33,896 nt of DNA. Source: a virus. The stretch lies in IMG/VR virus record IMGVR_UViG_3300031673_000270, positions 1-33,896 of that record, one strand, 5' to 3'. Of this stretch, positions 19,489 through 33,548 are shown piece after piece. The notes below the pieces were generated by a model. It saw only the letters and a program-made list of their open reading frames with translations, searched no databases and was not told the DNA's origin. How positions within the stretch are numbered: position 1 is the first letter of the stretch; each line of letters starts with the position of its first letter. Made by a program: the position numbers and the translations under genes.

Positions 19489-22400
19489 ATGGCACAAATT
19501 AGATCACAAAACGAAATCGTCCTAAGCTTGCTTGATTTCTTTCGTGCTGCACAACCAGACTTAGATACTAAGCCAGGACAGGTGTCTAGAGATGTTCTGG
19601 TGGATGGAGTAGCAATACAACTTGCTAGACTATACGAAGAATTACAAAGGAACGCGGCGTTGTCGTCTTTGCGGTTGGCGTTAGGATCTGATTTGGACCG
19701 GTTAGCTTCTAACTATGGTGCCGTTCGTAAACGTGGAACGAAATCCGCTGGACCCGCCCTGTTTACTTTTGAAGAAATTGTTGCGGATATTGGGATTAAC
19801 TCTGGAAACATTGTTACTGCCAGAAATGGTGCTACATTTATTGTCTCTACTAATGCAGTGGTCAGCCCAGTATTTGTTAACTCATATAGAGCGTTAGCTA
19901 CTCGTTATAGAGCCGATCTTGATTTGGTGGGAATAACGGATGAATTTGCTATTGAAGTGCAAGTAGAAGGCACTGCTACTGGCGTACAAGGCAACGTATC
20001 AAAATATATATTAGTATCTACCGATATAGACGGTGTATCACATGTAACTAACGTTACTCCGTTTGGTGGCGGTTCAGCCCCTGAAGATGATGCAACCTTT
20101 AGAAGTCGTGTGTTGGCAATTTTCAGTGGAGCTAACACTGGTACCGCGTTAGGGTATAGAAATGCCGTATTGTCTGACCCGGCGGTTTTAGATGCTATTG
20201 TAATTCAGCCTGGCGATTCGCTTATGGTGCGTGATGGTACTCAGGTAGGTACTGATTCTGATGGAAATACAATTGTTATATCTGAAGGAACTGGTGGCAA
20301 GGTTGATATATATGTTTATGGAACAAGACTGTTAGAGGTTTTGGATAGTTATGTTTATAATGATTTAAGCAATACCGATGATCCCACTAATACCGCTAAT
20401 GATTTTGTGCTGGGACAAATTGATGGTGACGAATTAAAGACCGTTACTCAGCGCCGATTAGATAATTTACAGCAAGGTGTTTTGCCAGCTCAGCCAGCTA
20501 ATAACATAGTGTCTGTAAGTGGCTCCATTAGCGGAGCAAATTTTGTGCCCAAATCAGTTGATTCTTTAGGGCGAATATCGGGAAACTATGAATTAGTAGT
20601 AGATACTGGTGCCTTCGGCGGTAGTCCTTGGGGTTTTGATAAAATGCGGTGGATCTCAAGTTACATCAGTAATTATCCCGAAGACGTGACTAAAGGCGTG
20701 TTTAACGGACAGGACGCTTTGTCTTTTCCTGATGTTTTAGAAATAGGTACAATAACTCAAAATGTTAGTGTAGTAAATGAGAATAGTACCGTTTCTCGTT
20801 CAGACCGTAGCAGTATACAATTAAAGCATTCACCAATGACTAACGTGACTCGGGTGTTTAACCCCACTACTGGAGAACGATATGTAGTGGAATCGCAGAA
20901 TCCTGACGGTACTGGAGCAATCAACGAAACCGGACGTATTGTGATTAGTGGAAGTAGCTTACCTGCCGTCAGTGATACATTGCAAGTTGATTACACTTGG
21001 ATGTTTCATTTCGATCCTTGGTGGGATTATGATAATGGATTAACTATTCGCAATCCTCGCACAGTGAATGATAGCGTAGATTGGGGCTTTTCGAACGCGG
21101 TTAGGCGTGAACAAGCTACTCTGGTTTCTTCAGGTTCGGTATTGTTAGCTACCGTAACTCATCCCATTTCAACCGTTATTGATGTAAATGTTTTTGAAGA
21201 ACAAAACGTTTCTGTGTCCTTGGTGTCTGGACGTTTAGCTATAGTGGTTAACAACAGTGTAGAGAACGTTGTTGGCGTTGTCGACGCCATTAATGGCGCT
21301 GAGTTATGGAACACCAGTGATGATGATGGTTCGTTTAGTGGGTTTACAATCTTTTTGCCTACGGATACTTCGGCAGATTTTGGTGATGTTGTTACGGCGG
21401 TTTATAATGCGGTTGATGTTTATAACGTGGATGGATACCAAGGAAGTTTTAATAGTAATCAAATAACTATTGTTCCTTCCGTCACCGCAGTAGCTGGCGA
21501 AATAGTAGAAGTAAATTATCTTGCTAATGTTAATATTATATTACCCGCAACCCCAATATCATCTTTACCCGCAATTCGTAGTGGAAACAATTTTGATACC
21601 GTTGTTTCTTCGGGGGTGGGTAACCAGCCCACTACTCATTTGTTTTCTGGCAGCGGAGTGATAGAAAAGAATTTGCGACAAGCCCCTAGCCGATTAGCCT
21701 TAGCTGTTGCAGGATCAATATCAAGCGGTGTGTTTACAATTTCTGGCACCACCATGGTGGGGGTTTTTGATGCTGTTTATACTGTAGGTACAGAGGGACT
21801 TACTCTTAACTTGGCGAGTGCTCTTCGGCGCGAACTAGGTTTAGCCTCATCTGCATCCATACCAAGTAATTTATCAGTAGCTCGTGTTGTAAGTGTAGAA
21901 AAGGTAGATGCTACAATAAATTTGGATGTTTTAAGCGTTACTCATACATATGATACGTTGGGTTGCGCGCTTCGTGATAATAGTTTTGTGAAGGATGAGG
22001 CTATCATAAACACCGCTTTAGGAACTACCGAGGTAACATTACCAGATACCGCTGACAACCAAAGCAACGAGCCTCAGGTAGGAGATCGTCTTCGAGTTAC
22101 GTTTTACTATACTCTTACTAGCGATACGGAGAACGTATCATTTAGCCAAAGCGGTACTCTTCGTACGGAGAAGATATTTGCTATCATTGATAGTATTGCG
22201 GTTTCTAGCGGATTTAGTTCAACAATATCGCAATCTGCCACATTAACTATTACTAATATTAATCAACCCACACAGGGCACGAGGTATAAATCATATTACG
22301 ATTATACCGCTCCTCAGCCCAATGAACGAATTACGGTTAGATATAATTATAATAAATTAATAAGCGATTCTACTTTAAATATAGAAAACACTCGTCCCAT

Positions 22401-22731
22401 AACCGCCGATGTGTTAGGCAAAGCATCATTTAAGGTTTTGGTTGATGTTACCATGAATATTGTGGTTACCACATCGTTTGAAAACAATTCAGAAATAGTC
22501 AAACAAAATGTGCAAAACGCTGTATCATCAGCGCTGACTGCCACTCAGCTGGGTACTACTGTAGACTCTTCTGATTTGGTGGTGGTAGCCCAACAGATTG
22601 ATGGCGTAGACAGGGCGCGTATTTTGTTCTTTAATAAAGCTGATGAGGCAGGAACAGTACTGAGTATTACTGCTGCAAAGAATGAATTTTTAGTCGCTAA
22701 TGATGTAATTGTCACAGTGGAAACTAGATAA
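19489..22731 (+). CDS. Baseplate wedge protein, Baseplate_J/gp6-like, enlarged (1080 aa)
   Basis: This is the wedge protein that forms the ring around the hub. Residues 1-80 are the helical start with LALGSDLDRLASNYG, and about 90-300 is the J-type core with ATGVQGNVSKYILVS and FGGGSAPEDDATFRSR. The end (about 985-1080) carries the usual closing J domain (SSALTATQLGTTVDSSDLV, then DGVDRARILFF). Between them lie about 680 residues of beta-rich material, absent from classical gpJ (about 300 residues in P2). This insert includes KHSPMTNVTRVFNPTTGERY (446-465) and an ELW...GSFSGF module (605-643), both of which recur in the next gene. A Shine-Dalgarno TGAGGA overlaps the gp25 stop. The family call is firm; the insert's role is unknown. 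Confidence 0.85.
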   Translation: MAQIRSQNEIVLSLLDFFRAAQPDLDTKPGQVSRDVLVDGVAIQLARLYEELQRNAALSSLRLALGSDLDRLASNYGAVRKRGTKSAGPALFTFEEIVADIGINSGNIVTARNGATFIVSTNAVVSPVFVNSYRALATRYRADLDLVGITDEFAIEVQVEGTATGVQGNVSKYILVSTDIDGVSHVTNVTPFGGGSAPEDDATFRSRVLAIFSGANTGTALGYRNAVLSDPAVLDAIVIQPGDSLMVRDGTQVGTDSDGNTIVISEGTGGKVDIYVYGTRLLEVLDSYVYNDLSNTDDPTNTANDFVLGQIDGDELKTVTQRRLDNLQQGVLPAQPANNIVSVSGSISGANFVPKSVDSLGRISGNYELVVDTGAFGGSPWGFDKMRWISSYISNYPEDVTKGVFNGQDALSFPDVLEIGTITQNVSVVNENSTVSRSDRSSIQLKHSPMTNVTRVFNPTTGERYVVESQNPDGTGAINETGRIVISGSSLPAVSDTLQVDYTWMFHFDPWWDYDNGLTIRNPRTVNDSVDWGFSNAVRREQATLVSSGSVLLATVTHPISTVIDVNVFEEQNVSVSLVSGRLAIVVNNSVENVVGVVDAINGAELWNTSDDDGSFSGFTIFLPTDTSADFGDVVTAVYNAVDVYNVDGYQGSFNSNQITIVPSVTAVAGEIVEVNYLANVNIILPATPISSLPAIRSGNNFDTVVSSGVGNQPTTHLFSGSGVIEKNLRQAPSRLALAVAGSISSGVFTISGTTMVGVFDAVYTVGTEGLTLNLASALRRELGLASSASIPSNLSVARVVSVEKVDATINLDVLSVTHTYDTLGCALRDNSFVKDEAIINTALGTTEVTLPDTADNQSNEPQVGDRLRVTFYYTLTSDTENVSFSQSGTLRTEKIFAIIDSIAVSSGFSSTISQSATLTITNINQPTQGTRYKSYYDYTAPQPNERITVRYNYNKLISDSTLNIENTRPITADVLGKASFKVLVDVTMNIVVTTSFENNSEIVKQNVQNAVSSALTATQLGTTVDSSDLVVVAQQIDGVDRARILFFNKADEAGTVLSITAAKNEFLVANDVIVTVETR
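20821..20910 (+). repeat. HSPxTN module, copy in the J-like protein
   Basis: Residues 445-474 (HSPMTNVTRVFNPTTGERY) align by eye with HSPITNVFRVYNETSEEIY in the 2218-aa protein (24273-24360), with nearly the same spacing of hydrophobic and Thr/Asn positions. This is protein-level repetition; the DNA is diverged, so the duplication or exchange is old. Confidence 0.55.
21295..21420 (+). repeat. ELW/GSF module, copy in the J-like protein
   Basis: Residues 603-644: a VVGVVDAI strand, then ELWN, GSFSGFTIFL and GDVVTAVYN. The same order occurs in the 2218-aa protein (25206-25320) as VELWDAGGSFNGYVITL and GNLVRVIYN. It looks like a shared beta-sandwich unit. Confidence 0.5.
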
Positions 22732-25700
22732 TGGCAAATGTACGTATAACCAGATTTAGGGTGGTAAATAGTACGTCTTTAAGGGCGCAGTTTACTCATA
22801 ATCTAGATCCTACGTTGGATGAAACCAACGTTAGTATAACCGCCTTCACACCAGGAATACCAGATCCTGAAGTGGTTACCGCCACTGTAAGTGAAGATAT
22901 TATGTACATCTATACGTATCCACTTACTCCGTATGCGTATTATGATGTAGAGTTTAAATCTGTTGGCACAAAGCGATTCAAATCAGCTGATGGTACCAAT
23001 TTCTTATTTGAAGATGGGAGAACCAATGTTATTCGTGCATTAGGTGCAGAAGATCCCGCAGAGTCCATCACCGCTACTTTAAAACAGTATTTAAATCGTG
23101 GCGAGGGTATTTATAATCTTGATGTTGGTACTATAATAAATGATATTGCTAACTCTCAAGGTAGCCAAATTGGCAGAGCACTTTATGATATTAAACAGTC
23201 CCGCAGTGATAATTATTTAGAAGTTGATATTTATGATGAACGTAAAACGCGTGGACCTGGACCTTGGGATCGCCTCAATGAAGAGGGTGCGTTTGAAATA
23301 GTGCGAGTAGGAACTACCTCCACTAACGCCACGTTATCTGGTAGCATCAGTTTTACATCATTTCCATCAGACCCCATTACATTACAACAAGCCAGTATTA
23401 TCAACGAACGGCTGGTTGCAGGAACCGGAACATCTACTTTTAACGATCTGATACTAACTGTTGCTTACAGCCCTGTAATCAGTATGGATAGTTTAACAGT
23501 TTTATATCAAGCAGGGGGCACAGCTGAGTATGATATACGTTCTTTGGGATATCAAATTAAAAACCCCAGGTATGATACTAGTTTTGCTTCAACCTTAGTA
23601 ACCCTGGAAGATAATCAAATCAAGCTAAGTAATGATGTTTTGGAAAGTTCTACTTTTATTCTTCCTGCCGCTGGTGATGTTTTAGTTATTAACTATAAAT
23701 ATAAGAGTTTAGGTAAAATTGTTGATGCCACCACTGTGGTGGTTACACAAGTGCTAGACGCCACAAGGGAAGTTACACCCCCAATTATTAATGATTTTTA
23801 TTTGGAGCATGCTCCGGTGGTGACAGAAGATGACCAGGTTGCTACTGCCGCTGGCATTGCTTTTCTAGACCCCTTAGCTAATCCGCCCTTCTCTGACACT
23901 CACCCTGCGTTTGCTAAAGAAATACCATTTAGAACAGAAGGGCTTCCCCAAAGGGTTGGTGAATATAGCGTAGACTATACAACGGGCAGGGTGGTTGTAT
24001 ATGGTGCTGAAAGCAACGAAGGTACGGGAAATTTCCCACCAGTAGCTACGTATAAGTATCGTAATACGTTTAGTTCTCGTTTGGATTATACTTATAATTA
24101 TGATACTTATGAATTAGCAGCATCTCCGGTGCGTGATTTGGCGGGAGAAGTTGCGGAGATTTCTTTTGAATATGAAATGACTTTGGTGCCGGGGCAAGAT
24201 TTCGTTGCCCAACAGCATACTGAAGTTATTAATGAAAGAATAGAAAACAGGTTAGCCACTTTAAACTCGCTGTATATTCAGCATAGCCCCATTACTAATG
24301 TGTTCAGGGTCTACAACGAAACCAGCGAAGAGATATACACGATTAATCGGTTTAGTGACAACACTGTATACTTCTCTTACCGTACTGCGCCAAGAATAAT
24401 GGCTGTAAATAAAGAGCGCGCCTCATTCACAGATGTTCTCCATGAAGTCCTAATACTGGAAAGTGAGTTTACTAATACTTTAGGAACCCGAGTATTTAAA
24501 ATCACCTTAATTAATGACAATATTATAGGTAGCACTGAAGACGCAATTGGCAGCAGTTATAATTCAAGCGTTACATTTAGTCGGGCTGATATATTTGAAA
24601 CTGAACTGTATTTTGACGCACAAATATTGTCAGAAACCGCTAATACTAATCGTCTGACGGTAGGGCAGTATCAAATAGATTATCGTGAAGGTGTTGTTTA
24701 TGTTGGGGTCAGCGCTTCTCGAAACCTAGATTTGGGCTCTGTTAATTATAAAAACGGAATTGTTAAACCAGAATACCCGCATATAACCAGCGTATCAGAA
24801 GTTTATTATAGTATTAGCAATATTACCGGAATTGCTCAGCGTATTACTTATACCAGCATAGGCGATCAGGCTATCACACCGAGTGCATATGATGTTACAG
24901 ATGAACGGTTTTTAAACGAAGACACTACGTTGCCATACATCAATGCGGCGGGGCAAATTACTGTATCTGACAACATCAAAGCAGTGCGTGGAATATATGA
25001 TGTTTATGACTTAACTAATCACACCACTATCACTAATTTCGGCGCTGGCGCTACTGTGGCTGCTAACGTGATTACGTTAGACTCTGATGGAATAGAAAAA
25101 ACAGAGAATTATACTGTTGGTGTTGGCGGAACTGTTACTGTTCAGTATCTAACTCCTGGAGCAGCAATTGTAGGAGTAAGCTCTGTAATTAGAATAAGCG
25201 ATAATGTTGAGTTATGGGATGCCGGCGGATCCTTTAACGGGTATGTAATTACCCTGTCGGGAACCGGTACGCCAGTGCCTGGAAATTTGGTTCGGGTAAT
25301 ATATAATGTACAACTTAATGGTGGCGCCACTCCGGTGGTAGATTATAACCGTGGAGATTACTTTATTGATTACGAATATCTAGCCGATGAAATATTGGTT
25401 AGTTACGAATACGGTGATAACAAAATAGATTTTCGTGAGAGTTTAGAAATTGAAGAGGGTGACACATACTATGTTACCTATAAGATTGGTGCTTTGCGAG
25501 ATTCGTTACTGAACAATTTTGGAACGTTAGTAGATGTGCCTATTTTAAACAGTTTTGATACATCTCTGGATAGAGAAACGTATAGAGACGCGTTGCAAGC
25601 AGCTTTACAATCGTTTACAAAAGGTCCAACCGTTCCAGCAATGAGTTTGTTGGTATCTTTAATTACTAAGATTGATCCTCGTATTACTGAAGCGGTATTT

Positions 25701-28700
25701 GATGTCTGGTCTTTGGGGATTAGTAATTTGTACTGGGATGGGATAGATTATACTGGTACTCCAACCTTGATGTCGGGCAAGTTTGATTTAGGGGTTTTGT
25801 TGGATACTTCAGGTCAAACCATTACGTTCCCCGTGTCTAGTAATTTACGTTTAGAAGAAGGCACATTAGAATGCTGGGTCATACCGGAGTGGGATGGTTT
25901 AGATAATGATGCTACATTGACTTTTGGAGGGCTTAAGCGGGATGGGTATACCCTATCAGCCTCTAGTATATTTATTGGCGCCGATAGTCATAATCCTGTG
26001 TATGACGATAATTACACCTTTACTGTAAATCGTACTGATACATCCAGTCCTATTGGGTTACCTTCGGCAGTGTACACGCAGGCTGGTTTATTTGTTTATT
26101 ATAATGACGTCACCAAGCGCTGGTATATGCTGGTTAAGGACCGTCCAGATGGCTACACCTATGAGGGAACAATCCAATCTTCTGGGGAGGTATACGACGT
26201 AAAACATATACCCGATTTAGGAGAGGTAACTGACTCTTTACGAAGCTATACAGACAAGATAGAATTCATAATGAAGTTAGACAGTCACGATGCTGCCAGC
26301 CCAGACGGATATACAACTGGGGACGGTTATGTTCCGGGGTATTCTTTTGACGGGATAACCTTCATGGCAGATGATCAGCATTATATTTTCGATTTTGGAG
26401 GAACGGAAGCTACAAATCGATTTTCTCTCTACAAAGATGGACGAGGTTATCTTTCTTTTGAAGCTTTTGATAATGGTAGAAGCCCTACCGGCAAACATTC
26501 ATACAAAGTCAGCGCAGACGTATCTGCTTGGCTTGCTGGGCAAGCCCATCATGTTGCCATATCTTGGAAACTAGATACGTCCGATCGTCGTGATGAAATG
26601 CACCTTTTCATTGATGGGATAGAGGTTCCCAATATATTGCGTTATGGGGGTATCCCAACCGCAGCGTCCACCGATCGTTTTAGGACTGTTAAACCTGAAT
26701 ATATAGCCGGTACTGTTCCAGCAGTAATCAGAACTGAAGATGATATGATTACAATAGCGGGGTCTACATTTGTACGTTCTGTAAGTGTAGATTTCGATGC
26801 TGCTGGCGTGGTGCCAGGAGATATAATTCAAATTCTTGAATCAGGGTTTGGTACTTATACAATACTCACAGTAACCGGACATGTACTAGAGATAAGCGGC
26901 GCAGCTCCTTCTAGTTTTTCTGATGCTAGATTTACAATTAATCCTTATGCCGTTATTGTATCTAGCGCCATTGATTTATACAACAACATTGCAGTTTCCC
27001 TATTACGCGGAACAACCGAAACAGAGTTGCCAGGACTGCGCGCAGATGTGCCTGGATATAGTGTAGACAAAAACGCGTTATTACAAAATGTACTTACCAT
27101 ATTAGGGGATGCAGAGGTAGGTGATCAGATACTAGTCAGAACGCTGGGAATGAATTTCCGCCGTTGTCGTGACCGTATTTATTTGTGGGGAGACGTTAGC
27201 GTATTAAAGACGCAACTTCCTCCTCCTATAAATCTGGATGAAGTCAAGATTGTTCCAGTACCATTACCCTTATTACCTATTGGACCCAACAATGCAGTGT
27301 TTGTTGGCGGGCACTTTCTTGCTACAGGCATTGCCACTACTCAAACGTCAAATCAAGTAGAAGGAAGAAGGTTGGAAGTACGTATTACTGGTGGTAACGT
27401 AAACTTTGGTACGCCGGTAAGGGTTACTATCAATGGCACATCTACTGGTGGTGTAATTGAAAACCTGCTCTTTAATGCCGCAGGATCCCAAATTACCGCC
27501 AACAAATGGCAAACCATCACCTCGGTAGAAGTAGAAGTTGTTCCTCTTGTAGCTACTCGTGATTCTACAGCGGTAGAGATTAAAGAAGCATATACGATCA
27601 CTTATCCTGACGGTAATACTAATTATCCTATTGTTCGATTTAGTTTTAAGACCCAAACGGGATTCACCATAGAAGGAGATGGCAGCGCCATTGTTAGTGA
27701 TACTGAGGGAGTATTTGTAGACTCAGATATAGGAAACAAGCTGGTTATCAGCTCTCCAGCCTCGGTGGTTGGTACATATAATATTGTGGACAGAACATCT
27801 ACCACGGAAATTGAAATTTCACCAGCTCCCGGCGTCGCATTTACCAATGGCATATACGACATTTACAATGTATCAATTGGAAGAAGTGGGTTCCAGAACG
27901 GGTTCTTTACTTTCGAAACTGCCGGACAGGTAGATGGATACTACAACCTTCCGGCTGGTTATTATGAATTTGATTATTCAGCATGGTTAGAAGTGCCGTA
28001 CGATCACACCCAAGATTTTACTGCTTATATTGGATCGGATATCAACGGAGAAAAACAAGCCAAAGCTATCATTGATGAATTCCGTATTCTATCAGAAATA
28101 CGAACGGACACCAGAACTGGAGAATCCATTAGTGCTAATGAAGATTCGGTTACTACCGATTACAATGCTTTGAGAGAGTTCGAGCCCGATAGCAACACTT
28201 TAATGTTGCTTCATTTCAACAGCCTTCCATTTATTAATGATGCAGAGTTTTACTTAAGCTCAACCAAAGAGTATTTACAATCTGGCAACAGTATTAACAG
28301 CGAATTTAACCAAAGCGTGGTGATTACCGATCAACCACTTGAATTTAATAATACTGGGCGTTTAGCCACTACATCCGAAGGCACTATTGAGTTTTGGGTA
28401 AGTCCTCGATTTGATACGTATAACGATCCTAACACGAGGTTTTATTTTGATGCTTCTGGTTCTATTGTAGAGGAGACAACTTCGCTTACTGCTGGAACAG
28501 TACAAACGGCGGGTAGAATATCCAGTGTAATAAGTGTCAGGTTACAAACTGATACGCAGAACACAGGAACGGATTATTATGCAGCTGGCAGTATAGGAAG
28601 CGATTTTAGAACAATACAGCTAGGCAAAGCACTTCCATCTCAACAAACTCCAGTTAAAATTAACTATATACAGGCAGGTTTAGCGGGAGATCGTATTTCT

Positions 28701-29387
28701 ATATTTAAAGATGGTGATGGTTTCCTTAACTTTAATGTTAGGGCGGGTGGAGTTGACTATCAAGTTCGTCAACCTATTTTCTGGCAGCGTGACACTTGGC
28801 ATCGAATAATGTGTACCTACAAAATGAACAGTGCCAACAACAGAGACGAAGTAAGGTTATTTGCAGATGGGGAAGAGAGAGGGATGGTTCTTTTTGGAGC
28901 TGGGTTAATTTTCGGTACCGGAGTGGTTTTCGGACAAGGTTTAGCTGGTTTGGATAACAGTCGATTAATTGCTGATATAAACTTTTACGATCCGATTAAT
29001 CAATTTTATCTTGGATCGGATTATCTTCGCGTCCATACTGCACAAGCCCGGTTTGACAACCTTAAACTTAGCAATACTGCGCGAGCGCCAGTAGTGGTAG
29101 CTGGGCAGGCTAAAGACATTAATTACAGTTCTAATTTAGATGTAGTATTTCCTGTGGTAGAAGATGCATTTACCACATTTTTGATTAATTTTGACCAACT
29201 TGTTACCAAGACTGAGAATTTAGCTGTATTACGTGATGAACAGTTTGGCATATTCAACTTTACCATGGATATCATTGATTCTTTTGGCATAGTTACTGAT
29301 GATGCCAAGGTTCAACAAATCATAGAAACTCTTATTACGGCATTAAAACCAGCTCAATCGAAGGCAACAATTAACTATATAGAGTAA
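22731..29387 (+). CDS. Very large tail/baseplate protein with two LamG-like domains (2218 aa)
   Basis: Probably a peripheral baseplate or fibre protein that touches the host surface. The N-terminus (1-100) is an Ig/fibronectin-like strand series (VRITRFRVVNSTSLRAQF), followed by helical segments and many beta-modules. HSPITNVFRVYN (about 518-529) and VELWDAGGSFNGY (826-838) copy modules of the preceding J-like protein. Two concanavalin/laminin-G-like domains are visible: about 1020-1310 (EEGTLECWVIPEWDG, then HHVAISWKLDTSDRRDEMHLF) and about 1820-2115 (EGTIEFWVSPRFD, then DTWHRIMCTYKMNSANNRDEV). LamG folds bind glycans or proteins, so host-surface attachment is plausible. The gene overlaps the J-like stop (TAATG at 22729-22733) with only a weak Shine-Dalgarno, so translation is probably coupled. 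Overall identity to a known named protein is not recognised. Confidence 0.65.
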   Translation: MANVRITRFRVVNSTSLRAQFTHNLDPTLDETNVSITAFTPGIPDPEVVTATVSEDIMYIYTYPLTPYAYYDVEFKSVGTKRFKSADGTNFLFEDGRTNVIRALGAEDPAESITATLKQYLNRGEGIYNLDVGTIINDIANSQGSQIGRALYDIKQSRSDNYLEVDIYDERKTRGPGPWDRLNEEGAFEIVRVGTTSTNATLSGSISFTSFPSDPITLQQASIINERLVAGTGTSTFNDLILTVAYSPVISMDSLTVLYQAGGTAEYDIRSLGYQIKNPRYDTSFASTLVTLEDNQIKLSNDVLESSTFILPAAGDVLVINYKYKSLGKIVDATTVVVTQVLDATREVTPPIINDFYLEHAPVVTEDDQVATAAGIAFLDPLANPPFSDTHPAFAKEIPFRTEGLPQRVGEYSVDYTTGRVVVYGAESNEGTGNFPPVATYKYRNTFSSRLDYTYNYDTYELAASPVRDLAGEVAEISFEYEMTLVPGQDFVAQQHTEVINERIENRLATLNSLYIQHSPITNVFRVYNETSEEIYTINRFSDNTVYFSYRTAPRIMAVNKERASFTDVLHEVLILESEFTNTLGTRVFKITLINDNIIGSTEDAIGSSYNSSVTFSRADIFETELYFDAQILSETANTNRLTVGQYQIDYREGVVYVGVSASRNLDLGSVNYKNGIVKPEYPHITSVSEVYYSISNITGIAQRITYTSIGDQAITPSAYDVTDERFLNEDTTLPYINAAGQITVSDNIKAVRGIYDVYDLTNHTTITNFGAGATVAANVITLDSDGIEKTENYTVGVGGTVTVQYLTPGAAIVGVSSVIRISDNVELWDAGGSFNGYVITLSGTGTPVPGNLVRVIYNVQLNGGATPVVDYNRGDYFIDYEYLADEILVSYEYGDNKIDFRESLEIEEGDTYYVTYKIGALRDSLLNNFGTLVDVPILNSFDTSLDRETYRDALQAALQSFTKGPTVPAMSLLVSLITKIDPRITEAVFDVWSLGISNLYWDGIDYTGTPTLMSGKFDLGVLLDTSGQTITFPVSSNLRLEEGTLECWVIPEWDGLDNDATLTFGGLKRDGYTLSASSIFIGADSHNPVYDDNYTFTVNRTDTSSPIGLPSAVYTQAGLFVYYNDVTKRWYMLVKDRPDGYTYEGTIQSSGEVYDVKHIPDLGEVTDSLRSYTDKIEFIMKLDSHDAASPDGYTTGDGYVPGYSFDGITFMADDQHYIFDFGGTEATNRFSLYKDGRGYLSFEAFDNGRSPTGKHSYKVSADVSAWLAGQAHHVAISWKLDTSDRRDEMHLFIDGIEVPNILRYGGIPTAASTDRFRTVKPEYIAGTVPAVIRTEDDMITIAGSTFVRSVSVDFDAAGVVPGDIIQILESGFGTYTILTVTGHVLEISGAAPSSFSDARFTINPYAVIVSSAIDLYNNIAVSLLRGTTETELPGLRADVPGYSVDKNALLQNVLTILGDAEVGDQILVRTLGMNFRRCRDRIYLWGDVSVLKTQLPPPINLDEVKIVPVPLPLLPIGPNNAVFVGGHFLATGIATTQTSNQVEGRRLEVRITGGNVNFGTPVRVTINGTSTGGVIENLLFNAAGSQITANKWQTITSVEVEVVPLVATRDSTAVEIKEAYTITYPDGNTNYPIVRFSFKTQTGFTIEGDGSAIVSDTEGVFVDSDIGNKLVISSPASVVGTYNIVDRTSTTEIEISPAPGVAFTNGIYDIYNVSIGRSGFQNGFFTFETAGQVDGYYNLPAGYYEFDYSAWLEVPYDHTQDFTAYIGSDINGEKQAKAIIDEFRILSEIRTDTRTGESISANEDSVTTDYNALREFEPDSNTLMLLHFNSLPFINDAEFYLSSTKEYLQSGNSINSEFNQSVVITDQPLEFNNTGRLATTSEGTIEFWVSPRFDTYNDPNTRFYFDASGSIVEETTSLTAGTVQTAGRISSVISVRLQTDTQNTGTDYYAAGSIGSDFRTIQLGKALPSQQTPVKINYIQAGLAGDRISIFKDGDGFLNFNVRAGGVDYQVRQPIFWQRDTWHRIMCTYKMNSANNRDEVRLFADGEERGMVLFGAGLIFGTGVVFGQGLAGLDNSRLIADINFYDPINQFYLGSDYLRVHTAQARFDNLKLSNTARAPVVVAGQAKDINYSSNLDVVFPVVEDAFTTFLINFDQLVTKTENLAVLRDEQFGIFNFTMDIIDSFGIVTDDAKVQQIIETLITALKPAQSKATINYIE
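24273..24360 (+). repeat. HSPxTN module, copy in the 2218-aa protein
   Basis: Residues 515-543 with HSPITNVFRVYNETSEEIY, the partner of the J-like copy at 20821-20910. It sits in a similar beta-rich context, suggesting the two neighbouring genes share ancestry over part of their length. Confidence 0.55.
25206..25320 (+). repeat. ELW/GSF module, copy in the 2218-aa protein
   Basis: Residues 826-863 with VELWDAGGSFNGYVITL and GNLVRVIYN, the partner of 21295-21420 in the J-like protein. Confidence 0.5.
25780..26655 (+). other. LamG/ConA-like domain 1 in the 2218-aa protein
   Basis: Residues about 1017-1308. The hallmarks are a G-T-x-E-x-W-V strand (GTLECWVIPEW), an H-H-V-A-I-S-W-K strand and a LFIDG-E/I turn near the end, as in Laminin_G_3 domains. 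An insertion of about 150 residues separates the first and last blocks, unlike in the simplest members. Confidence 0.6.
26736..26950 (+). other. Small beta-module, copy 1 in the 2218-aa protein
   Basis: Residues about 1336-1407, running from ITIAGSTFVRSVSVDF through GDIIQILESGFGTYTILTV to FTINPY. The pattern matches the second copy at 27663-27870 and the sheath segment at 1733-1936. Confidence 0.45.
27663..27870 (+). other. Small beta-module, copy 2 in the 2218-aa protein
   Basis: Residues about 1645-1713, running from FTIEGDGSAIVSDTEGVFV through GNKLVISS and VVGTYNIVD to GIYDIYNV. It has the same strand order as 26736-26950 and lies between the two LamG-like domains. Confidence 0.45.
28195..29080 (+). 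other. LamG/ConA-like domain 2 in the 2218-aa protein
   Basis: Residues about 1822-2117. It has the EGTIEFWVSPRF strand, then DTWHRIMCTYK and NRDEVRLFADGEERG, with the same order of signature strands as domain 1 (W-V strand, H-x-x-x strand, R-D-E-x-x-L-F-x-D-G). The two domains probably arose by duplication within the gene. Confidence 0.6.
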
Positions 29388-29388
29388 C

Positions 29389-32289
29389 ATGACCACCAGA
29401 TTAGACGTATCGACAGTTCAGAATATTTGGCACGACGCTCAGCGTGTAGATAAATCCGACATGGATGTGGAGCAGAGTTGTAATAACCAAGTTAATTCCG
29501 CAATTGTTAACAACTTTATGGGTTCGGGGGTTCTACCAGACAACCCTCAACCGTTAGTATTATTCGATTCTGACGATCTCACCGGTATTCAGGCTGAAAT
29601 TTTAGCAGCTGGAAACTTTGATGGGACCGGACTTGACATTCATACTCAACCTAGCGATTCCAATCTGGGCAATCAAATTGAAGTGGAATTAACCGGTTCG
29701 GATGTGCTGGGCAGACTGAGTGTTAAAGTATTAATTATAGGCTTATCTTTTGAAGGAGAGTTACAGTTAGATAGATTTTATTTCTATGCAAATGAGAAAC
29801 AAGTTACCTCTAAACATTATAAACATATTTTAACTGTAATGTTTAATGACTTCAAAGGTAACAACAATTGTTCGCGTAGTCTAGGCGGTAGAATAGTAAT
29901 GCGTGAAGCAGCACCGTTCGAACTTTCTCGTGATACCAAGATGGTGGCACAAGATGTAATGCCCGATCTGTTTTTTAGGGATTTCAAACCCGCCGATCAG
30001 GCGTTGGGAATGTTTCCCACCATTCAGGCAGCAATTGGTTCGGTTTATGATGCTAACAATCTTAATATCGATGTTACCGGAAGACAACCACCCCGCTCTA
30101 TTGACCCTAATGATGTAACTACCCGTATTGGACAAAAGTTCCAGGCACGTTCGGATAATATTCAGAAGGTTACTTTGCTATTAGGTGTAGAAAAAGACAC
30201 CACAGTCAGTACTGAGCACTGGTATGATTGGGAAGGTGACTTAGTTGTTAGCATTTATCCTCTTCAAACTACTGTTAATTGTCCTACACAATTAGTTCCA
30301 GAATCAAGTATAGAGTACGATCCTGCTGCCGCTCCGGTAGCAGAGGTAAGTTTTAGTCAAGCAGATCTTAGAAGCATAGGATATGTATTAACAGGGGTAG
30401 CGCAGCCACTGGATATTATATTTAGCAATACCGCTATTGCACAAGCTGGAGGTATTACAGTTGGAAACTATTATGCCGTTACGTTTAGGCGCTCTGGTGC
30501 AGCCAATGCGGGAACCATCTTCTCTGAAATGGGCACCAACCGTTTAGATAACTCCAGGTTCACTATATACAGTGGCATTTGGACCGATGTGGTAGAAGAA
30601 GATTTGTGGTTCCAAGTTTGGTCAGATGCCGCTAAAGTTTCTGATGGTAAAGGTTATGATGCCGGAAATGGTATTCAATATCCTAAAACCACCATCGATA
30701 CGTCTACCGGAGCTTATATCGATAATGAGATTGGCGGTTTCTCGTTAGTTAACACAGGACAGAGTATTGTAAATACGGGAATAATTCAAGCCACCACCAA
30801 TGAAACCGTTACAGTACAAGATGAACGCACTGGAGATAACGTATATTCTCGCCAACAGTTTGTTCCTTCGTTTAGCTTTGTTACAACGTCAGAATTAACT
30901 ACTTTAAAACAAACAACGGAACCGCTAATTATTGGCTGCGCGGTAGATGTGAACCCAAAGGTAACAGACGTTATCATTGGTAGTCAAATCTATCCTGGAT
31001 TGGCAAAAGGCGACGATTTTATTATCATTAATCCCGGTGCGGATTTGTTGTCCGTTCGTTTGGTGGGACGTAAGCTGATTCCCAATAATACGTGTAATGC
31101 GTTAGATTATAGAATTTATGGTGTAGAACTGTGTGTAGACGGATACGGAGATGTCAACGGTGATGGGTATATTAATGATAGCGACATTACGCGTGCCAGC
31201 ACTCTTTTAGGGGAGAGTATTTGGTCCGCATCTACACAGCAAAAAATTGTAGATGGATATTTTTCTACTTTAGAGCTACTTCGGGCAGACGTGGATGGGG
31301 ATGGGTATATAACTGTTAACGATATTGATTTAATTACTAATTATGTTAATAGAAGTATAAACTCTTTTCCAGTAGGCACTTCTTTCAACCACCTTACATT
31401 AACCGTTCAACAAAGCATAGGTAGATATGATGGTTATTATGATTGTAATGGGCGGGTAAGGCTAGACGGCTATCACGAATATAACATTGTTGATCCGTCT
31501 TCATTAAGTGCAGCAGAGCTGGTTTACGATGGGTATTTGGCGGCAGTCAATATTGAAGCCTCCGATTCGGTATTTACTACAGTTCCTTTCCCAGGAGTTA
31601 CGTACGAAATAGATTTTCAGCCTTTCTGGCAAGACTATCTTTTGGTGTTTTCTAGCAGTGCTCGCATGTTGCCAGCCGCATTTACTTACGCTGCTAGCGC
31701 AACAAGCACTTCGTGCAGTACCGCTTTAACATTTGAATGTACTGACAGGAACACCACGGTTCCAGCTTGCGATCCCGGTAGGAACGATTTATTTGTTCCG
31801 GCTAATTTGATAATTGGTACAGGGGGAGAAATTCTTCGACCCAATGGCGACAACTACAAGGTAGACGTAGAAATAGGTACTGTAATTCTTCAGTTACCAG
31901 ACACGCCGTTATCTGAATCGATCATTGATGTATTCCGAAGTTTCGTGGCGGATCGTGGTGATGGTTTTACAAATAGCGGGTACGCTGCCATGCGATATTC
32001 TGATTGTACTACGGTGCAGCCAGAAGACCTGAGTTTGAACAAGATTAGATTCGGGGTATCTTTACAGTCATTTTCTAATTTAGATGGTTATTTTGTGGAT
32101 GACATCATCGGTGTGTATATGGATTACAATTCTGGTATTTTAAAGCTTACTATTAAGGATTTGTCGGTAGATACGATTTATCTTACGCTGGTAACCAAGA
32201 TTCAGATATTGGTATATCTTAAGAAAGCTGGTTGGAATAACGAGGTGCTAACGGTAGGACCGGACGAGGTGGCTGGTCTAATATCTTAA
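29389..32289 (+). CDS. Distal tail protein with dockerin-like domain (966 aa)
   Basis: Last gene of the tail operon, probably a distal baseplate or receptor-binding protein. Residues 1-230 look like a baseplate-attachment region, with a VEVELTGSDVLGRL-like strand set and YKHILTVMFNDFKG. Around 330-480 the sequence is beta-rich and carbohydrate-binding-like. At 588-599 and 634-645 are two canonical calcium loops (Asp588, Asn590, Asp592, Asn596, Asp599; Asp634, Asp636, Asp638, Thr642, Asp645), each followed by a helix, as in dockerin type I pairs. A degenerate third loop (DCNGRVRLDG) follows at about 690. The tripeptide DGY occurs about eight times. The C-terminal 200 residues are another beta-domain. 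The start ATG is 1 base after the upstream stop, with a weak Shine-Dalgarno. The intrinsic terminator follows 24 bases after the stop. Confidence 0.6.
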   Translation: MTTRLDVSTVQNIWHDAQRVDKSDMDVEQSCNNQVNSAIVNNFMGSGVLPDNPQPLVLFDSDDLTGIQAEILAAGNFDGTGLDIHTQPSDSNLGNQIEVELTGSDVLGRLSVKVLIIGLSFEGELQLDRFYFYANEKQVTSKHYKHILTVMFNDFKGNNNCSRSLGGRIVMREAAPFELSRDTKMVAQDVMPDLFFRDFKPADQALGMFPTIQAAIGSVYDANNLNIDVTGRQPPRSIDPNDVTTRIGQKFQARSDNIQKVTLLLGVEKDTTVSTEHWYDWEGDLVVSIYPLQTTVNCPTQLVPESSIEYDPAAAPVAEVSFSQADLRSIGYVLTGVAQPLDIIFSNTAIAQAGGITVGNYYAVTFRRSGAANAGTIFSEMGTNRLDNSRFTIYSGIWTDVVEEDLWFQVWSDAAKVSDGKGYDAGNGIQYPKTTIDTSTGAYIDNEIGGFSLVNTGQSIVNTGIIQATTNETVTVQDERTGDNVYSRQQFVPSFSFVTTSELTTLKQTTEPLIIGCAVDVNPKVTDVIIGSQIYPGLAKGDDFIIINPGADLLSVRLVGRKLIPNNTCNALDYRIYGVELCVDGYGDVNGDGYINDSDITRASTLLGESIWSASTQQKIVDGYFSTLELLRADVDGDGYITVNDIDLITNYVNRSINSFPVGTSFNHLTLTVQQSIGRYDGYYDCNGRVRLDGYHEYNIVDPSSLSAAELVYDGYLAAVNIEASDSVFTTVPFPGVTYEIDFQPFWQDYLLVFSSSARMLPAAFTYAASATSTSCSTALTFECTDRNTTVPACDPGRNDLFVPANLIIGTGGEILRPNGDNYKVDVEIGTVILQLPDTPLSESIIDVFRSFVADRGDGFTNSGYAAMRYSDCTTVQPEDLSLNKIRFGVSLQSFSNLDGYFVDDIIGVYMDYNSGILKLTIKDLSVDTIYLTLVTKIQILVYLKKAGWNNEVLTVGPDEVAGLIS
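31138..31360 (+). other. Dockerin-like tandem calcium-binding repeat
   Basis: Two loops, DVNGDGYINDSD (588-599) and DVDGDGYITVND (634-645), have Asp/Asn at positions 1, 3 and 5, Asn/Thr at 9 and Asp at 12. Each is followed by a short helix (ITRASTLLG and IDLITNYVN). The F-hand form (loop then helix, without a leading E-helix) and the roughly 46-residue spacing are typical of dockerin I. Confidence 0.75.
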
Positions 32290-32312
32290 AACCCAGACTA
32301 CAAAAATATGTG

Positions 32313-32342
32313 CCGGCTATTCGAAAGGATAGCCGGTTTTTT
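32313..32342 (+). terminator. Rho-independent terminator closing the tail operon
   Basis: A 10-bp stem, CCGGCTATTC (32313-32322) with GGATAGCCGG (32327-32336) containing one T-G wobble, is capped by a GAAA tetraloop and followed at once by six T residues (32337-32342). It is among the clearest intrinsic terminators possible. It lies 24 bases after the stop of the 966-aa gene and ends transcription of the tail operon. Confidence 0.93.
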
Positions 32343-32378
32343 GTCGAGAGTGATATAGACACTTATTTAGGAACAGAA

Positions 32379-33548
32379 ATGAAGATTAAGATACAGCAGT
32401 TTCTTTTTAACAAAAACCATTCCTGGGCAATTGTTGGGCAAAACATTGGGCGTGCTTTACTTAAAAAAGGACATGATGTTCATTTTATTTCAACCGATGG
32501 TGTGCAGGAAAAATTTATACCACCAGATTTAAAGTCGTATATTAGAGAAAAACCTCAAGGAACTTATGATGCGCAAATATCTTATACGGCAATGAAAAAT
32601 TTTCCTGCATTTTTAAAAAATGGAAATAAAAATAGAATTGGCATTTGGAATTTTGAAACAACAATTCTGCCGCCCGGTTTTGCTAAATATTATAAATTTA
32701 CAGATAAATTTTGTCCGTCCTCCAAATTCGCCGCCAAAATATTCTCTGACAATGGCGTTCCAGAAAACCACATAGAAGTTGTGCCGCACGGAATTAATGT
32801 TGAAGAATATAGGTCTTTTGAAAGATATCCTTTAAAAACCCAAAAGAGATATAAAATATTAGCTAATATTGCACAACCACACGTCAGGAAAAACATAGAT
32901 GGATTATTTGAATCATACGGTATGGCGTTTAATAAAAACGATGATGTATGTTTGGTAGCTAAAGTTAGTGCTAAAAAGATTCCATCTCCTCAAGTAATAA
33001 AAGCTAGAACCAGCCGTGGCATTAGAAAACAGCAACAAAAACAAAGTGAAAAAAAAGACAAAATTAGTCAGTTTGATGTGGATTTTTATAGTATTTATAA
33101 TGCATTCTGTAACAAATATCCAAACCATGCCGAAGTAGAAATAATAAACGAATTCGTACCAAGCATGGTGCCCATCTACAACGTGTGTGATATAGTATAT
33201 TCAGTTACTCATGCCGAGTGTTTTTGGCTGCCAGGATTAGAAGGAATGGCGACCAACAATCTTATTATTGCTCCTAATTGGGGAGGGCAATTGGAATATA
33301 TGAATGAAGGTAATTCTTTACTAATCGATGGAAAAGAGGGGCGTGCTCCCAAGAAGATGCAGTATTGGGTTCCGTCACCTTATGCAGCTACGTTTATTCC
33401 AGATTTGGACGATGCCGCGGCAAAGTTACAGCAGGGAGTGAGAGAGTACGATACACTGATGACGAAGTTCCGACCAGGAATGAACGAACAATTAACACGT
33501 TTAACCTGGAATAACGTAAGTCAGATGATTTTAGACCTCATGGAGTGA
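32379..33548 (+). CDS. Glycosyltransferase, GT4-like GT-B fold (389 aa)
   Basis: A nucleotide-sugar-dependent glycosyltransferase. The ATG at 32379 is chosen because TAGGAAC (AGGA at 32369-32372) lies just upstream. A longer frame from GTG 32310 would run through the terminator hairpin and is rejected. The N-terminal half has the acceptor-side pattern (AIVGQNIGRALLKKGHDVHFIS) and PHGINVEEY (136-144). The C-terminal half has QPHVRKNIDGLFESY (166-180), VYSVTHAECFWLPGLEGMA with the E-x7-E pair Glu280/Glu288, and APNWGGQLEYMNEGNSLLI. There is a basic insert at about 205-230 (ARTSRGIRKQQQKQSEKKDK), probably a loop. It lacks membrane segments. Possible targets are virion proteins, modified phage DNA or host surface sugars; the sequence does not decide. 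It lies beyond the terminator and so needs its own promoter or read-through. Confidence 0.85.
   Translation: MKIKIQQFLFNKNHSWAIVGQNIGRALLKKGHDVHFISTDGVQEKFIPPDLKSYIREKPQGTYDAQISYTAMKNFPAFLKNGNKNRIGIWNFETTILPPGFAKYYKFTDKFCPSSKFAAKIFSDNGVPENHIEVVPHGINVEEYRSFERYPLKTQKRYKILANIAQPHVRKNIDGLFESYGMAFNKNDDVCLVAKVSAKKIPSPQVIKARTSRGIRKQQQKQSEKKDKISQFDVDFYSIYNAFCNKYPNHAEVEIINEFVPSMVPIYNVCDIVYSVTHAECFWLPGLEGMATNNLIIAPNWGGQLEYMNEGNSLLIDGKEGRAPKKMQYWVPSPYAATFIPDLDDAAAKLQQGVREYDTLMTKFRPGMNEQLTRLTWNNVSQMILDLME

Follow-up and report, generated by a model that had tools for sequence, protein, structure and literature searches.

The 966-residue protein encoded at 29389..32289 (plus strand) of the window, by which we mean the whole 33,896-nucleotide stretch of viral DNA analysed here, carries an internal module that, as modeled, is a true dockerin fold with a double F-hand. 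The carriers of this protein are a jumbo myovirus family, and the lineage is widespread among metagenomic contigs. We consider it about two-in-three probable that the module serves as a calcium-stabilized structural joint inside a distal tail protein, as opposed to a cohesin plug. Dockerins have been studied chiefly for their binding to cohesins, and a jumbo-phage lineage that keeps the fold and its calcium sites, apparently without a cohesin, would be a naturally occurring example in which the fold serves as a structural joint; the split form of the family described below, with a domain between its F-hands, would be part of that example. A testable prediction is that these phages depend on calcium for tail assembly or adsorption, and the word “dockerin” in viral annotation calls for caution against inferring cellulosome biology.

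Sequence and predicted fold of the dockerin module

The dockerin type I domain comprises residues 586–654 (31144..31350, plus strand, as are all window features given below). Pfam Dockerin_1 (PF00404) aligns to the 966-aa protein over the full model (1–57) with 31.9 bits, against a cut-off of 22.9, and an E-value of 1.5e-7, and a DNA-level search of the whole record with PF00404 gave 31144-31350 as the sole location (36 bits). The same profile was matched in 34 of 36 homologues, and since the ligand pattern is kept across the homologues as well, the dockerin match is not due to chance. Compared on its own with solved structures, the module finds cellulosomal dockerins (best E 1.3e-6, to 4uyp), and a profile built from the 36 homologues has 8x39, 4uyp, 4fl4, 1clc and 1ohz among its matches (best E 1.7e-9, to 8x39).

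The two F-hand calcium loops lie exactly where the first-pass annotation, which had proposed a dockerin-like domain in a phage tail protein, had placed them. Loop 1 is DVNGDGYINDSD, residues 588–599 (D588-VNGDGYINDS-D599; 31150..31185), and loop 2 is DVDGDGYITVND, residues 634–645 (D634-VDGDGYITVN-D645; 31288..31323). Between them runs a linker of residues 600–633 (31186..31287), defined by the spacing from position 12 of one loop to position 1 of the next, which from the split-form model is also the site of an extra domain in a sister clade. The linker calls for one correction: it is longer than that of the C. thermocellum Xyn dockerin, with the Asp residues that start the loops 46 apart here vs. 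about 34, by alignment, in the Xyn dockerin.

Structure prediction agrees with the profile evidence. The AlphaFold2 model of the full protein, built from a 36-sequence alignment and free of ions, has a mean pLDDT of 84 and a pTM of 0.78, with pLDDT values of 86–94 in each 10-residue block over residues 581–660. Helices are predicted at 597–604, 614–621, 627–633 and 643–653, and those at 597–604 and 643–653 directly follow the two loops, so that the pair of loops carries the following helices as well as the profile match by which the earlier proposal was to be judged. The module is internal to the protein (residues 586–654 of 966), being entered through a long beta-strand at residues 574–585 (31108..31143) and left through another at residues 665–675 (31381..31413), both assigned by DSSP on the AlphaFold2 model. 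A Foldseek search against the PDB returned 4uyp_B, 4uyq_B, 4fl4_A, 4fl4_G and 8x39_A with a probability of 1.00, and the TM-scores by target for the single dockerins (4uyp, 4uyq, 4fl4) were 0.72–0.80.

The module is thus readily compared with the cellulosomal type I dockerins (C. thermocellum xylanase Y, 1ohz; ScaB, 4uyp; the Clo1313_0689 double dockerin, 8x39), which it resembles in the D-x-N/D-x-D-G spacing, the Asp at position 12, the helix after each loop, the length of about 69 residues, and the profile and fold matches. A cellulosomal dockerin is part of a secreted enzyme or scaffoldin and is usually terminal. The phage module differs in being internal to a tail protein, in its longer linker, in its unconserved contact positions and in that no accompanying cohesin was found, and in the sister clade it differs further by the domain between the hands.

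Genomic setting and the two forms of the family

The order of genes upstream of the 966-aa protein is a sheath (phrog_2839), a baseplate protein (phrog_2669) and a baseplate J protein (PF04865), and the relatives are alike. The last of these is a baseplate J or wedge (gp6-like) protein at 19489..22731 (PF04865, 4.9e-18; phrog_6, 1.1e-32), and its presence identifies the block as that of the baseplate. It is followed by a 2218-aa tail protein with concanavalin-A-like/laminin-G domains (22731..29387; PF13385, 36.7 bits, above cut-off), which is the upstream neighbor of the dockerin protein in conserved synteny. Downstream lies a glycosyltransferase gene (32310..33548; PF13439 just above cut-off; phrog_2170, 9.9e-20). 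In the relatives checked, the syntenic block runs from the sheath through several large tail proteins to the baseplate J/gp6-like protein, the laminin-G-like protein, the dockerin protein and the glycosyltransferase; the glycosyltransferase is found 3' of the dockerin protein at 69 of 80 loci, and the remaining loci end shortly after or inside the dockerin gene.

Based on its position after the baseplate genes, as well as on the fibre-like C-terminal extensions of its relatives, we place the dockerin protein in the distal tail, associated with the baseplate, where it is probably an adhesin. The location assumed in the first-pass annotation is supported by synteny and extensions, just as the domain itself is by profile, predicted fold and conservation. 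No enzyme family was detected in the 966-aa protein with Pfam.

IMG/VR scans yielded homologues at 80 distinct loci, matching the protein over most of its length or in part; the contigs that carry them reach 481 kb. The counts given below refer to 69 distinct homologues and the per-position conservation to 65 representatives below 90% identity. The family has two forms. In the contiguous form (23 of 69), the last Asp of loop 1 and the first Asp of loop 2 are 35–37 residues apart. In the split form, which makes up a sister clade (46 of 69), both loops are retained with the F-hands 125–170 residues apart and a further domain of roughly 95–110 residues between them. In an unrooted tree of the N-terminal half, displayed with midpoint rooting, the two forms are fully separate, and the contiguous side has a support of 1.0.

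A model of the split form (a 289-residue fragment from locus L062) has pLDDT values of 91–97 over the module, a helix after both loops and the same flanking strands, with fragment residues 19–30 and 211–221 as the counterparts of strands 574–585 and 665–675. From the retained loops we infer that the F-hands pair in the split form too, for which Foldseek gave no confident dockerin match covering both halves. The intervening domain is mostly beta in the fragment model and had no confident solved relative in a Foldseek search of the PDB.

Variation in the family is located in the C-terminal half of the dockerin protein. Many members of the split clade carry an additional 110–330 residues at the C-terminus, often with the motif LPIxHGGTGLN and also with GTVLxSNGSxLSYQF (L051, L065, L066, L056 and others); these extensions resemble tail-fibre repeats. 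In some relatives (L062:9232-12852, L089:9241-11859), the dockerin protein is followed by a gene for nine or ten bacterial Ig-like domains (Big_3_5), which separates it from the glycosyltransferase. In a 458-kb relative (L001:9980-12924), the dockerin protein is split into frames of 88 aa and 912 aa, which may be a sequencing error or a true frameshift.

Calcium ligands, cohesin-facing positions and the role of the module

Loop 1 has its full set of calcium ligands in 68 of the 69 distinct homologues, and loop 2 in all 69. Among the 65 representatives, D588, D599 and D645 never vary and residue 634 is either D (61 of 65) or N; positions 3 and 5 of the loops are D or N with few exceptions, and D, N, S or T predominate at positions 3, 5 and 9. 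From this ligand pattern we infer that both loops bind calcium. The split clade usually has F, M or L in place of G at position 6 of loop 2, and the most diverged member of the contiguous form (L090, 861 aa, truncated where its contig ends) has an intact loop 2 but a degenerate loop 1, DIVTNNKIDASD; given these changes, calcium affinity may differ among members.

The positions that would face a cohesin behave differently from the metal sites. We take the cohesin-contact positions of the 1OHZ dockerin to be 11, 12, 18, 19, 22 and 23, and 10 of the resulting 12 fall at the 6th–25th percentile of conservation, the exceptions being position 22 in hand 1 and position 23 in hand 2. Loop positions 10/11 are D-S and V-N in the 966-aa protein vs. 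S-T pairs in C. thermocellum, and the S-T/K-R recognition code is absent from it. Other cohesin types recognize other residue codes, so that cohesin binding as such could still occur. Read from the alignment, the conservation pattern is one in which the fold and the metal sites are kept and the outer face is free. Variable surface positions would also be expected of a fast-evolving binding interface.

We also looked for the partner. No cohesin (PF00963) scored above cut-off in 34 records (33 of the group, several of them 200–481 kb, plus phage G), many of which are fragments and in which a strongly diverged cohesin could be missed. Below the cut-off, G007 and G010 scored 14.5 bits and phage G scored 18.7 and 14.5 bits. 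One such cohesin-like stretch of 14.5 bits, in a 1600-aa protein (L107), was set aside because Pfam finds nothing up to E 10 in the homologous 1737-aa protein of the window and because a four-sequence alignment shows little conservation of the stretch. The cohesin-like partner on the virion that had been suggested earlier thus goes unsupported at the sensitivity of the profile.

Among the three functions offered by the first-pass annotation (a calcium-stabilized structural module, a plug for a cohesin-like partner on the virion and a means of attachment to a cohesin-bearing host surface), the structural module fits best, because its ligands and helix core are conserved, unlike most of the cohesin-contact positions, because it sits inside the protein, and because the sister clade tolerates a domain between the F-hands. 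Under this reading each loop would take one calcium ion, either during assembly or extracellularly, and the bound calcium would lock both helix-loop pairs together. The locked module would in turn set how the N-terminal half joins the C-terminal half, which is the variable one. For the sister clade, the calcium lock would also set how the extra domain is displayed. A joint immediately upstream of the variable C-terminal part seems plausible.

It is doubtful that the dockerin is instead a working calcium-dependent plug that connects the tail tip to a virion or host partner outside the recognized cohesin family, which, if true, would extend dockerin-partner pairs beyond cellulosomes to the assembly or attachment of a virus. 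The module could dock in a calcium-dependent manner to a protein of the same virion, with a socket not recognizably a cohesin, during assembly of the tail tip, as might be suggested by the fact that dockerins elsewhere are docking modules, by the location of the gene within a syntenic block of large tail proteins, and by a C-terminal part of varying length, after which separate genes of Ig-like repeats sometimes come. We find this unlikely, however, with no cohesin above cut-off in the 34 records, with the weak cohesin scores (14.5–18.7 bits) belonging to phage G, itself without a dockerin, and to a 1600-aa protein whose counterpart in the window shows no match, and with most of the cohesin-facing helix positions being variable.

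A receptor-binding plug that fits onto cohesins of the host surface appears highly improbable, even though a dockerin fold does sit in a distal tail protein and cohesin-bearing hosts are generally known to occur in nature. The contact positions are mostly not conserved (including D-S and V-N at loop positions 10/11, where C. thermocellum has S-T), the module is internal with a domain between its halves in the sister clade, and no relative was found in the genome collection with two protein queries, the dockerin protein and the baseplate protein. The module might also bind some other outside target, such as a glycan or surface protein, with the fold as a scaffold for a binding surface formed either by the helix faces, which vary, or by the extra domain. 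Variable helix faces around a fixed core, the lack of a clear solved relative for the extra domain of the split clade, and the laminin-G-like and Ig-like neighbors are in keeping with such a role, but in members with fibre-like tails the likely receptor-binding tip is more C-terminal, making this reading quite unlikely in our estimation.

Known relatives and the DGY tripeptide

The best match among predicted viral structures is A0A6J5RS54, a 1332-aa protein of an uncultured Caudovirales phage in BFVD, which is a structural homologue over the full length, with a Foldseek E of 1.6e-98 and a TM-score by query of 0.82, and shares its family with the 966-aa protein. Its length suggests a longer form with a C-terminal extension. 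Since it bears the automatic name “Dockerin domain-containing protein,” a dockerin in such a phage protein is already present in public annotation; our literature search, which included dockerin together with “huge phages,” found no paper discussing one. Named phages gave no match to the 966-aa protein nor to the module alone. The nearest named relative of the J/gp6-like protein is the wedge protein of the Bacillus phage G baseplate region (gp188, gp189), with gp188 as the relative at 30.5% identity over 27%, and phage G, unlike the family of the 966-aa protein, is without a dockerin match.

The LysGH15 lysin is a phage protein with an EF-hand-like calcium site, and it differs in being an enzyme as opposed to a tail protein with a dockerin pair (PMC4022735). 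Mentions of dockerin for a VvAW1 gene (PMC3558961) and for a structure-template match of HSE2 (PMC5967307) are unrelated cases.

The tripeptide DGY occurs 8 times in the 966-aa protein vs. 0.28 expected from composition, and 5 times vs. 0.67 expected in the 2218-aa neighbor, with varied codons. Over the 80 loci, the observed/expected ratio for the dockerin protein is 33 in the contiguous clade and 20 in the split clade, compared to 12–13 in the case of the laminin-G-like protein; other proteins have 1.3 and the glycosyltransferase has zero, these ratios being descriptive only because related sequences are not independent. DGY could possibly be a modification or target motif for the neighboring glycosyltransferase. 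Such a sequon would lead one to expect the glycosyltransferase to be missing from DGY-poor loci, and this is not what is seen: these loci keep the gene, including two near-identical ones (L054, L079) where it accompanies a full-length dockerin protein without any DGY. The DGY sites are spread over 43 columns of the alignment; they lie largely toward the C-terminus, in that half of the protein, and their places often differ between the clades.
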